Of a stretch of DNA of 64,000 nucleotides, positions 8,099 through 12,710 are shown in pieces. Source of the DNA: Vineibacter terrae (GTDB lineage Bacteria > Pseudomonadota > Alphaproteobacteria > Reyranellales > Reyranellaceae); NCBI RefSeq assembly GCF_008039615.1, contig NZ_VDUZ01000016.1, forward strand, positions 1 to 64,000. Direction: 5' to 3'. Below the pieces are notes generated by a model, which did not search any database, was not told where the DNA came from, and saw nothing but the letters and a program-made list of their open reading frames with translations. Positions within the stretch are counted from its first letter, which is position 1. Every line of letters starts with the position of its first letter. A program made the translations under genes and the position numbers.

Positions 8099-9025
8099 AT
8101 GACGTCCCCTGTTCTTCGCATCGGCACACGCGGCAGCAAGCTGGCCCTGGCTCAGGCAACGCTGGTATGTGACGCCCTGAAGGCGGCCCATCCGGCGCTG
8201 GCGCGCGATGGCGCCCTCGAGATCGTCGCGATCCGCACCACGGGTGATCGCGAGCAGGCGCGCAAGCTGTCGGAAATCGGCGGCAAGGGCCTCTTCACCA
8301 AGGAGATCGAGGAGCAGCTGCTGGACGGTTCGGTCGATATCGGCGTGCACAGCACCAAGGACATGCCGACGCTGCAGCCGGATGGACTGGCCCTGGCGGC
8401 GTTCCTGCCGCGCGAGGATCCGCGCGACGTGTTGATCGCGCGCGGCGATGCGCGCGCGATCGCCGATCTGAAGAAGGGAGCCACCGTCGCAACCGTGGCG
8501 CTGCGCCGTCAGGCGCTGCTGCTGCATCGCCGGCCCGACCTGAGGGTCGAGCCGATCCGCGGCAATGTCGACACGCGGCTGCGCAAGCTTCAGGACGGCG
8601 CCGCCGATGCGCTGATCCTGGCACGGGCCGGACTCAATCGGCTGGGCCGCGGCGATGTCGGCGTGGTGATCCCCGTCGACGAGATGCTGCCGGCGGTGGG
8701 CCAGGGCGCCGTGTGCATCGAATGCCGCAGCGACGATGGGCGGGTGCGCGATCTGCTGGCCGCGATCGACCATCAGGCGACGGCGCGCTGCGTGCGCGCC
8801 GAGATCGCGATGCTGCGCGTGCTCGATGGCTCGTGCCGCACGCCGATCGCCGGCCATGCCGTGCTCGACGGCGGGCAGCTCTGGCTGCGGGCGCTGGTGG
8901 CGCGGCCCGATGGCAGCGAGGTGATCGCCACCGAGCGGCGTGGCGCTGCCGGTGACGGCGACGCGCTGGGCGTCGATGCCGGCGAGGAGCTGCGGCGCCG
9001 CGCCGGCCCCGGCTTCTTCGGCTGA
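8099..9025 (+). CDS. hemC: Porphobilinogen deaminase (hydroxymethylbilane synthase)
   Basis: HemC joins four porphobilinogen units into hydroxymethylbilane, an early step of haem synthesis. The 308-residue product starts [16 protein letters not shown], has STKDMPT, the [14 protein letters not shown] region and RGNVDTRL. The dipyrromethane cofactor Cys lies in [13 protein letters not shown] (about C246). The start is the ATG at 8099, fixed by the conserved N-terminus. The stop is 10 bases before the hemD fusion gene, and hemY follows, so hemC leads a haem operon. Confidence 0.97.
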
Positions 9026-9035
9026 GCCGCGCGCG

Positions 9036-11276
9036 ATGCGCGTCCTCATCACGCGGCCCGAGCCCGAGGCGCAGTCTTTCGCCGAGCAGCTGAGCGCGCG
9101 TGGGCACGAGGCGCTGCTGGCGCCCATGCTGAGCGTGGTGATCCTGCCGGTGCCGGACGGGCTTGCCGATCAGCTGGCAGCGGCTCAGGCGGTCCTGCTC
9201 ACCAGCATCAACGGCGCGCGGGCGCTGGCGCAGGCCACCAAGGTGCGCGGCTATCGCATCATGGCGGTCGGCGATGCGACGGCCGACGCCGCGCGCCAGC
9301 TCGGGTTCACGGACGTGGTGTCGGCCAGCGGCGACGGGCGGACATTGATCGCTTTCGTGTCGCGGCGGCTGTCGCCGGCGGATGGCCGGCTGATCCATGC
9401 CGGCGGCGCCGTGAAGGCTGGCGACATCGCCGGCGTCCTGCGGACGGCAGGCTTCACTGTCGACGACGTCGTGCTCTACGAGACACGCAACGTCGATGCC
9501 TTGCCCCGCGAGATCGTGCAGGCCATCGAGGACGGGCGCGTCGACGCAGTCACGTTTTTTTCGCCACGCACGGCGCAGGCCTTTGTTAAGGTGGCCGAGC
9601 AGACCGGCATCGCGCCGTTCCTGGCGCGGACGGTTGCCGTGGCCATCAGTCCGGCCGCGCTGGCTGGCGCCGATGGCATTTCGTGGCGTGCGCGGATTGC
9701 TGCGCGCACGCCGACCCAGGACGGTGTCCTCGCTTCCCTCGATGCGGTGACGCCACCACGAACGGGATCGCCGACAATGAGCGACGACAAGAAGTCGACT
9801 GCCCCCGAGGCAGATGCTGGCGACAAGATCCAACCGACCGAAGCGGCAGACGACAACGCGGTGGCGGCAGCCGGCACGCAGGCGGCTTCTCACGCTCCAG
9901 CGCCGCGCCGCGGCGTGGGCGTCGTCGGTGCCTTCATCAGCGGCCTCGTCGCATCGGTCGTCGTCCTCGGCGGCGCGTTGGCCGTCTACGAGGCGCGGCC
10001 GCAGGCGGTGCGCCAGTTCTTTGCGCCAACTGCGCAGGATGCCGGCAACGCACCGGTGTCGCGGGAGACATTGGCCGGTTCCTTGAAGCCGCTGGATGAA
10101 CGCCTGGCGCAGCTCGAGGCCAAGGCACGGGCGCTCGACACGGTTGCAGCCCAGGCAGCCCAGCTCAAGGAGCTGCAGGACAAGCTGGCGGCGCAGGGGA
10201 GCCGGCTGGCCGCGATGCAGGACCTCGCTGCGAAGGTCGATGGTCTTGGCAAGAGTGGTGACGTGGAGGCGGCGGCGCGCATCGCGGCCGATATCGCGCA
10301 AGCCCGCCAGGAGCTGGCGACGCTGCGATCCGATATGGCGACGCTGAAGAATCGGCAGGAGGCGGCGGACACGACGATCCGCTCATTGACGGACCGGGCT
10401 GCCGCGCCGGGCGCCACGACGAGCGATGTCCCGGCCGATGTGGCGCGCCAGGTCGCGGTCCTGATGGATCGCCTCGACCGGCTCGAGAAGCGCGAGGCCC
10501 AGGTCAGCGGCACGTTGAGTGGCGTCGTCGACAGCGCCGCGCTCGCGCGCGCGGTCGGCGAGGCCGAGGCACGGCTGCGCGATCAGCTTGCACGCAACAC
10601 GACCGAGATCGAACGCACGCGCGGCATGACGGCAGCGTTGACGGAGCGCGTGACCGCCGTCGAGAAGGACGTGACCGCGAAGCTCGACGCCGTGCGCCAG
10701 GACGTCGCCTCGCGCGGCGACAGCGACCGGCGCGCCGGCGACAACGGCCGAGCCGCGGCCGCGTTGGGCATCGCCACGCGGCTGCGCCAGGCGATCGATG
10801 CCGGCGGTCCGTTCGTGGCCGACGCCGACTTGCTGAAGCCGCTGGCCGCCGGTGATCCGGCCATCGCCGCCATCCAGGGCGAGCTGGCGCCGTTCGCGTC
10901 CGCCGGTGTTGCCACCCGCCGGACGCTGGCCGGCGCGTTTCCCGAGATGGCGCGCCGCGTGCTGGCAGCGGACGTCGCCGACGACTCCTGGGGAGAACGC
11001 CTGCTGGGCAAGCTCAAGCAGCTCGTGTCGATACGCCGCGTCGGCGACGATGTCGTCGGCGCGACGCCGGAGGCGATCCTGGCGCGCGCCGAGGCGGCGA
11101 TCGAGGCTGGCGATATCGCCAAGGCCGTGGCCGAGATGAAGGGGTTGAAGAGCCCCGCCATCGATCCGGCGCGCGACTGGCTGGCGCGCGCCGATGCCTA
11201 TCTCGCGGCCCAGCGCGCCGTCGATCGGCTTAGCCTTCACGGCATCGGCCTGCTGTCGCGGGCCGACTCCAAGTAA
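9036..11276 (+). CDS. hemD: Fusion: uroporphyrinogen-III synthase (HemD) + mitofilin/Mic60-like membrane protein
   Basis: One uninterrupted frame of 746 codons holds two proteins that are normally separate neighbours. Residues 1 to about 247 are HemD ([19 protein letters not shown]..., [22 protein letters not shown]), which closes hydroxymethylbilane to uroporphyrinogen III. Residue 248 is an in-frame Met (ATG 9777-9779) at the point where a free COG4223/Mic60 protein would begin: acidic leader, one membrane helix at about 295-318 ([20 protein letters not shown]), then a long coiled coil and a C-terminal mitofilin-like helical domain. Mic60 homologues shape membranes. With the N-terminus inside, HemD would stay cytoplasmic and the coiled coil would be periplasmic, so the fusion is topologically possible. 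Separate translation from 9777 cannot be excluded; an ACGGGAT stretch precedes it weakly. Confidence 0.88.
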
Positions 11277-11300: not shown

Positions 11301-12710
11301 ATGACCCTTGTGCGGACCCTGGTCTGGTTTGTGCTGCTTGTTGTGGCCATGACCCTCGCCGTCTGGCTGGTGGAACGGCCCGGCGTGGTGACGGTGCAAT
11401 GGCACGGCTGGCGGCTCGACACCAGCGTCGGCGTGGTGCTGATCGTGATCGTCGTGCTCTGCGTGCTGGCGGCGCTGCTCTATGCGCTGTGGCGCTGGCT
11501 CGCCGGCGCGCCGTCCACCGTGTTCGACATCTGGGGCGAGTCGCGCCGTCGCAAGGGCTATCGCGCGCTGACGCAGGGCATGGTCGCGGTCGCTGCCGGT
11601 GATGCGGCCGAGGCGCAGCGTTGCGCCCGGCTGGCCGAGAAGCTGCTCGAGGAGCCGCCGCTGACGCGCCTGCTGTCGGCCCAGGCGGCCCAGCTTGCCG
11701 GCGACCGTGATGCCGCGCAGCGTTATTTCGCGGCCATGCTCGACGATCCGCAGATGGCCTTCCTCGGGTTGCGCGGGCTCATGATGCAGTCGCTGAAGGA
11801 TGGCAATTCGAGCAAGGCGCTGGCCTATGCCGAGCAGGCCTTCCAGCGCCGGCCCGACACGCCGTGGGTCGTGCGCTCGCTGTTCGACATGCAGGCGCAG
11901 GCCGGCAAATGGAGCGCGGCGCAGGAGACCCTGCAGGTCGGGCTGAAGCGCAAGATCGTCGATCCGGAGCGCGGCCGCACGCTCAGCGCCCTGCTGCTGG
12001 TCGAGCGCAGCCGCGCCGCCGAGCGCGGCGGCGCCGACCAGGATGCCGTCGACCATGCCAGGGCGGCGCTGGCGCTGGCGCCGGAACGCGAGCCCGTGGC
12101 CTATCGTTACGCCGAGCTGCTGATCAAGCGTGGTGACGGCAGGAAGGCGATGAAGGCGATCGAGCGCGCCTGGCCGGTGTCGCCACATCCCGATCTGGCG
12201 CAGCTCTACCTCGCGGCTGCCGGCGAGAAGGATGCGCTCAAGCGGGTGCAGGCCCTCAGTCGCCTGACGGCCGGCAACCCCGATGATCTCGACAGCCGCA
12301 TTGCGCTGGCCCGCGAATGCCTGGAGGCGCGGCTATGGGGTGAAGCCCGGCGCCATCTCGTGGCGGCCGGCGCCGAGCGGCCGGATGCGCCGACGCGGCT
12401 GTGCCGGCTCATGGCCGACCTGGAGGAGCAGGAGTACGGCGACGGCGAGAAGGTGCGCCAATGGCTGGCGCGCGCCGCCGACTCGCCGGGCGACCGGCAG
12501 TGGCGCTGCCGCAGCTGCGGCGCGGTCCACGACAGGTGGCTGGCCGTCTGCGATTCCTGCGCCGCCTTCGGCACCACCGAATGGCAGATGCCGCCGCCGT
12601 CATCCCATGCCGTGGCGGCGGCCGCAGCCACCAGCACGCTGCGCCTGCGCCCCGAGCAGGAGGTCCTGCCGCCGGATCCGCCGGCCGAGGCGAAAGCGCC
12701 GGCATCCTGA
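11301..12710 (+). CDS. hemY: HemY-type haem biosynthesis protein, TPR membrane protein with zinc ribbon
   Basis: This 469-residue protein has two N-terminal membrane helices (about 5-25 and 42-66), the HemY_N signature WHGWRLDTS and GYRALTQGMVAVAAGD, then tetratricopeptide helices to about residue 395. A C-terminal four-cysteine ribbon follows (CRSC...CDSC, about 403-425), ending in a Pro/Ala-rich tail. HemY of this type is linked to late haem synthesis, but its exact role is not settled; it is not the oxidase named HemY in Bacillus. It follows hemC and the hemD fusion by 24 bases, in line with one haem operon. Confidence 0.88.
   Translation: MTLVRTLVWFVLLVVAMTLAVWLVERPGVVTVQWHGWRLDTSVGVVLIVIVVLCVLAALLYALWRWLAGAPSTVFDIWGESRRRKGYRALTQGMVAVAAGDAAEAQRCARLAEKLLEEPPLTRLLSAQAAQLAGDRDAAQRYFAAMLDDPQMAFLGLRGLMMQSLKDGNSSKALAYAEQAFQRRPDTPWVVRSLFDMQAQAGKWSAAQETLQVGLKRKIVDPERGRTLSALLLVERSRAAERGGADQDAVDHARAALALAPEREPVAYRYAELLIKRGDGRKAMKAIERAWPVSPHPDLAQLYLAAAGEKDALKRVQALSRLTAGNPDDLDSRIALARECLEARLWGEARRHLVAAGAERPDAPTRLCRLMADLEEQEYGDGEKVRQWLARAADSPGDRQWRCRSCGAVHDRWLAVCDSCAAFGTTEWQMPPPSSHAVAAAAATSTLRLRPEQEVLPPDPPAEAKAPAS

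Follow-up and report, generated by a model that had tools for sequence, protein, structure and literature searches.

An in-frame fusion of HemD and Mic60 in Vineibacter terrae and its putative internal mic60 start

Does the long reading frame at positions 9036-11276 of the Vineibacter terrae contig NZ_VDUZ01000016.1 encode one protein, in which HemD is joined to a Mic60-like membrane protein, or could it also give rise to a second product? We addressed this question in a window of 64,000 nucleotides (positions 1 to 64,000 of the contig), in which all the features described below lie on the forward (+) strand.

The fused gene and its domains

The frame at 9036-11276 is single and uninterrupted (746 codons, 746 aa) and its sole stop is the TAA at 11274-11276. 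A sequence-only reading of this locus had reported that no stop codon separates HemD from Mic60 and that the junction falls at an in-frame ATG. Both statements hold: the two domains score above the curated cut-offs of their profiles, and the ATG (9777-9779) is codon 248 of the frame. It is virtually certain that the fused open reading frame is real. The gene order at the locus is hemC, hemD-mic60, hemY. The upstream neighbour, hemC (porphobilinogen deaminase, 8099-9025; PF01379, E 5e-79; PF03900, E 2e-16), has its own frame and is unfused. The downstream neighbour, hemY (11301-12710), encodes a HemY_N/TPR membrane protein (PF07219, E 1e-27, with TPR repeats). Towards its C-terminus, at residues 401-425, the HemY product has a stretch that resembles a zinc ribbon (CRSCG...CDSC); it matches the LapB rubredoxin-type domain below threshold (E 2e-4).

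In the fusion, HemD is followed by a linker, probably disordered, then by a single transmembrane helix and the Mic60/mitofilin part. The HemD domain (residues 14-232, 9075-9731) matches HEM4 (PF02602) with 137.2 bits against a curated cut-off of 27.5 (E 6e-40), over profile positions 2-230 of 231. It also matches the solved synthases 3mw8 and 1jr2 in phmmer searches. It has every residue that reaches at least 90% conservation across 107 loci, among them S176 and Y148, the latter aligning with the Tyr of the VYQT motif of the human synthase (1jr2). The genome encodes only one hemD and only one mitofilin gene. Hence, any HemD made by this bacterium is fused, unless it is cleaved. Provided that hemD is expressed, production of the fusion protein, with a computed size of 77.1 kDa, is nearly certain.

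The Mic60 (COG4223/mitofilin) part matches Mitofilin (PF09731) at residues 261-732, with 50.5 bits against a curated cut-off of 27.4 (E 2e-13). Its C-terminal mitofilin core (11055-11231) aligns with residues 26-84 of the MIC60 chain 7pv1_A, and the match to this solved mitofilin domain has an E of 9e-4. The putative coiled coil of the Mic60 part gave weak matches to coiled-coil profiles. A structure prediction from a two-row alignment had a mean pLDDT of 40 and was discarded. The dN/dS between genus members is 0.27-0.30 for HemD and 0.17-0.27 for the mitofilin part, showing both domains to be under purifying selection. For the HemD part, this selection and the sole genome copy are consistent with uroporphyrinogen-III synthase activity.

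The transmembrane helix of the Mic60 part (about residues 294-318, 9915-9989) appears as a single hydropathy peak of 2.35 at residues 293-311 and is preceded by RR. We saw no N-terminal signal in the fusion protein. By established topology rules, these two features should place HemD in the cytoplasm and the mitofilin part in the periplasm. The earlier proposal of a membrane-tethered HemD thus stands as regards the fusion itself and the single helix that follows HemD, and its cytoplasmic HemD is the predicted orientation. Alphaproteobacterial Mic60 (COG4223), a homologue of the MICOS subunit Mic60, has the same transmembrane helix and C-terminal mitofilin domain as the window protein (review PMC12136173). 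The latter differs from an ordinary alphaproteobacterial Mic60 by the catalytic enzyme added at its cytoplasmic end.

Distribution and history of the fusion

We fetched 100 regions; profiles made from the family of the window (Reyranella and its neighbours, f1) served to classify 126 loci. All 32 sampled loci of this family are fused, some of them in single-contig assemblies, with divergences reaching down to about 40% protein identity. The nearest named genome, Reyranella sp. CPCC 100927, is about 70% identical and has the same stop-free junction. Comparison with relatives, which the sequence-only reading had proposed as a check, therefore shows the junction to be a real feature and no product of misassembly or chance, since it is free of stops in the 32 family genomes. 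These data refute the idea of a sequencing or assembly artefact, or of a recent neutral stop loss in one strain, to which we give practically no credence. One of the 32 fused loci, in the Reyranella-type genome G035, has an in-frame TAG where its relatives have Trp. The break falls in the Mic60 part, downstream of the transmembrane helix, and leaves the junction intact; it could reflect either a misassembly or a genuine truncation.

Outside the family, 33 of 94 loci (59 families) were fused by domain match, 53 were separate and five unassigned, counts that should not be read as class-wide rates because the sample, which includes draft genomes, favours HemD resembling the query. Three more long frames with a linker and a transmembrane helix, lacking a Mic60 match, bring the fused total to 36 of 94. 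Fused loci thus span 20 families by domain match, and 23 with these three. In the three loci (L067 of G251, L121 of G218 and L150 of G081), HemD runs in frame into the helix and a long C-terminal part, which is either a highly diverged Mic60 or another partner. We rejected a candidate triple fusion of HemC, HemD and Mic60, suggested by open frames of up to 1515 codons: HemC was in another frame at all the loci checked, and the long upstream frames are GC-rich read-through of a different frame.

The sequence-only reading described hemD and mic60 as separate neighbours in most alphaproteobacteria. The fusion is fixed in the window's family and recurrent in alphaproteobacteria. It is not a novelty of one genome. 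In a tree of HemC and HemD from 107 loci, the fused or separate state changes at least 19 times, a figure that is approximate because the backbone of the tree is poorly supported. Shuffling the labels on the same tree gave a mean of 35 changes and a minimum of 26. The state therefore carries phylogenetic signal with many switches, and by this reconstruction alphaproteobacteria have gained or lost the fusion repeatedly.

How could such fusions arise? The separate hemD/mic60 pairs of the class are spread over the three possible relative frames (26, 17 and 10 pairs). In 14 separate loci (e.g., L081, L086, L087, L099, L146 and L153) the genes share a frame with exactly one stop between them, so that a change of one base could create or abolish the fusion; read-through of this stop would yield the same HemD-Mic60 protein. 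One of these loci, L153, belongs to the nearest family outside f1 and has the single stop directly between the genes. The route by stop loss is shown directly in three close relatives on supported branches (family f44): the genes overlap out of frame in L097, are separated by one in-frame TGA in L099, and are fused in L078. The block around the mic60 start is nearly identical in the three (GGAGCAyGAnATGAsCGAGCGTCC). The suggestion that loss of the hemD stop created the fusion thus describes a demonstrated route, although at the window locus a shift of hemD into frame is an alternative.

A probable internal start at the junction

The sequence-only reading was right about the fusion but missed the role of ATG 9777 as a retained mic60 start codon. 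Every member of the family has M-[ST]-[DE] after the HemD domain. Measured from the start of hemD, the internal ATG lies at nine different distances in the family (244, 247, 248, 249, 252, 253, 256, 258 and 260 codons) and is always in frame, whereas the separate pairs of the class use every relative frame. Across the class, separate mic60 genes commonly begin with MSD, MSE, MTD or MTE, and the median energy of their ribosome sites is -5.8. As these starts are alike, the most plausible reading of the internal ATG is that of the mic60 start. In most family members, AAGGA or AAGGAG lies 8-10 nt upstream of it. Outside the family, fused loci occur in 23 families, and in 15 of these an ATG within the 25 codons that follow HemD is accompanied by a site of -4 kcal/mol or stronger; other windows of these genes would lead one to expect 1.2.

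Could the ATG and its upstream site be relics of the old mic60 start, the full-length fusion alone being made? Relics should decay, yet where codon -4 encodes glycine it is GGA in 23 of 23 cases, whereas GGA makes up 6.7% of the Gly codons elsewhere in these genes. All the other Gly columns (27 in total with this one) use more than one codon, and the codon preceding GGA varies (GAA, CAA, AAA, ACG, CCG, ATG, CCA and CAG). Synonymous change is about halved upstream of the ATG: across 13 independent family pairs, codons -10 to -1 have a pS of 0.205 and other windows average 0.384, with 9 of 635 as low. Amino-acid change in the same codons is raised, to 0.23. M-[ST]-[DE] is kept throughout the family while its flanks diverge. 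In the L001/L006 pair (L001 being the window gene), pS is 0.00 in the linker before the ATG (9732-9776), against 0.43 in HemD, and a run of 10 residues is identical between the window gene and that of CPCC 100927, the overall identity being 73%.

Other observations agree better with a relic. Members of the window's genus have a weak ribosome site (GGGA, -3.5 to -4.1), although GGGATC is kept in three of its four members. In the window gene, the Shine-Dalgarno-like GGGA (9764-9767) lies 9 nt before the ATG with a duplex energy of -4.1 kcal/mol, and 7.5% of other windows hold an ATG with an equally strong site. About a third of the fused loci outside the family (13 of 36) lack a good internal start and would make the fusion only, so the short product is not universal. 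Examples of loci with no such start, which should make the fusion alone, are L063, L065, L067 and L085. On balance, a mere relic seems unlikely to us.

A second alternative is that a protease cuts the linker of the 77-kDa chain, releasing soluble HemD and an ordinary Mic60, the fusion then being a device for making both in equal amounts. In its favour, the linker is rich in Pro, Ala and Ser, fast-evolving and likely disordered. However, we saw no conserved cleavage motif in it, its residues varying freely except for M-[ST]-[DE], and protein processing would leave the conservation at the nucleotide level unexplained. We consider this alternative very improbable.

The marks of a retained start at the junction ATG imply that a free Mic60 is probably made too. 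Initiation at 9777 is well supported by the conserved signals, with the case weakest in the window's own genus. We hold with good confidence that the internal start is used in the family, and with somewhat less that it is used in the genus. In the window gene, the mRNA around 9777 has little structure, ranking in the lowest 1.3% of windows. The difference in folding at the junction between fused genes with and without an internal start (z 1.94 vs. 0.88) is only suggestive as a start signal. The fall in GC3 at the junction was rejected as evidence, since fused genes that lack an internal start show an equal drop (-0.052 vs. -0.057).

Possible function and known systems

The reading that we favour is thus one gene with two products, a membrane-tethered HemD-Mic60 and a free Mic60, and we think it probable. 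In an ancestral hemC-hemD-mic60-hemY operon, the hemD stop would have been lost, or hemD brought into frame with mic60, so that HemD became attached to the N-terminus of Mic60 on the cytoplasmic side. Initiation at 9036 would then produce a 77-kDa inner-membrane protein whose cytoplasmic HemD is connected by a flexible linker to a single transmembrane helix, with the coiled-coil and mitofilin domains lying in the periplasm. Initiation at ATG 9777 would produce a free Mic60 of 52 kDa (computed at 51.6 kDa, 499 aa, 9777-11276). The two forms would have the coiled coil and the mitofilin domain in common and could co-assemble, in which case only part of the Mic60 pool would carry HemD. The retained start leads to a precise prediction, two products of 77 and 52 kDa from one gene, and to a caution for annotation, as a second product may go unnoticed behind a single HemD-Mic60 call.

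A covalent fusion that recurs, and that stays in frame through many changes of length, is strong genomic evidence that HemD and Mic60 work together. HemD carried on Mic60 would place uroporphyrinogen III synthesis at the inner membrane. A role in membrane bending or in intracytoplasmic membranes has been reported for other alphaproteobacterial Mic60 (review PMC12136173). The sequence-only reading proposed that the fusion links haem synthesis to membrane shaping. That such coupling is the function of the fusion is conceivable, and we give it slightly less than even chances. We are a little more hesitant about the fuller picture, a recurrent two-product gene whose two forms co-assemble and thereby place this synthesis at Mic60 sites. 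The natural fusions with and without an internal start provide a means to ask what role Mic60 has in haem synthesis.

An alphaproteobacterial operon of hemC, hemD, a mitofilin gene (IMMP) and hemY, head to head with tsaD, has been described (PMC7641849). Its gene order and domains are those of the window locus, but hemD and the mitofilin gene are described as separate in it, with no fusion mentioned in the passages found, whereas they form one frame in the window. Our search of the accessible literature found no described HemD-Mic60 fusion, and an earlier mention may exist. Genes within genes expressed by internal initiation include those of the long and short forms of Rpn (PMC10327210) and AerR (PMC6199135). 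Like hemD-mic60, these have one frame with a second in-frame start and a C-terminal product. In hemD-mic60, the inner gene would instead be an ancestral neighbour whose start survived the fusion.

In mitochondria, MIC60 interacts with the haem metabolon, MICOS is linked to ferrochelatase, and the loss of MICOS in yeast leads to porphyrin accumulation, according to PMC9163361 (citing Piel 2016 and Dietz 2021). Cooperation between HemD and Mic60 fits this contact, as Mic60 is physically associated with haem biosynthesis in both cases, but the mitochondrial enzyme is another one (ferrochelatase, on the matrix side) and its contact is non-covalent, whereas the window fusion is covalent. We thus regard it as a parallel, not as proof. 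Mic60 is the oldest part of the crista-organising system and sits among haem genes in alphaproteobacteria. If co-assembly at Mic60 sites were true, the fusion would be a covalent bacterial counterpart of the contact between MICOS and a haem enzyme, and would suggest that the link between Mic60 and haem predates mitochondria.

Fused HemD/HemX proteins occur in some beta- and gammaproteobacteria. In them HemD is also joined to a membrane protein at the same operon position, but HemX belongs to another family (PF04375). No HemD-HemX fusion was found among the 150 Pseudomonadota genomes that we sampled, 33 of which carry HemX. A single HemX frame of this sample exceeds 600 codons (in G346), and HemD and HemX are separate there.

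The linker between HemD and the transmembrane helix holds a Cro/YdaS-like helix-turn-helix (FGGIRPMAxKLxxxxSTVQGWKxRxHIP) in several fused loci (L077, L090, L096, L115, L125 and L137). The segment also occurs, on the cytoplasmic side of the helix, in some separate Mic60 (e.g., L084, L118, L143 and L151). Its best Pfam match, P22_Cro, is below the cut-off (E 9e-4), and a membrane-bound Mic60 that binds DNA would be odd.
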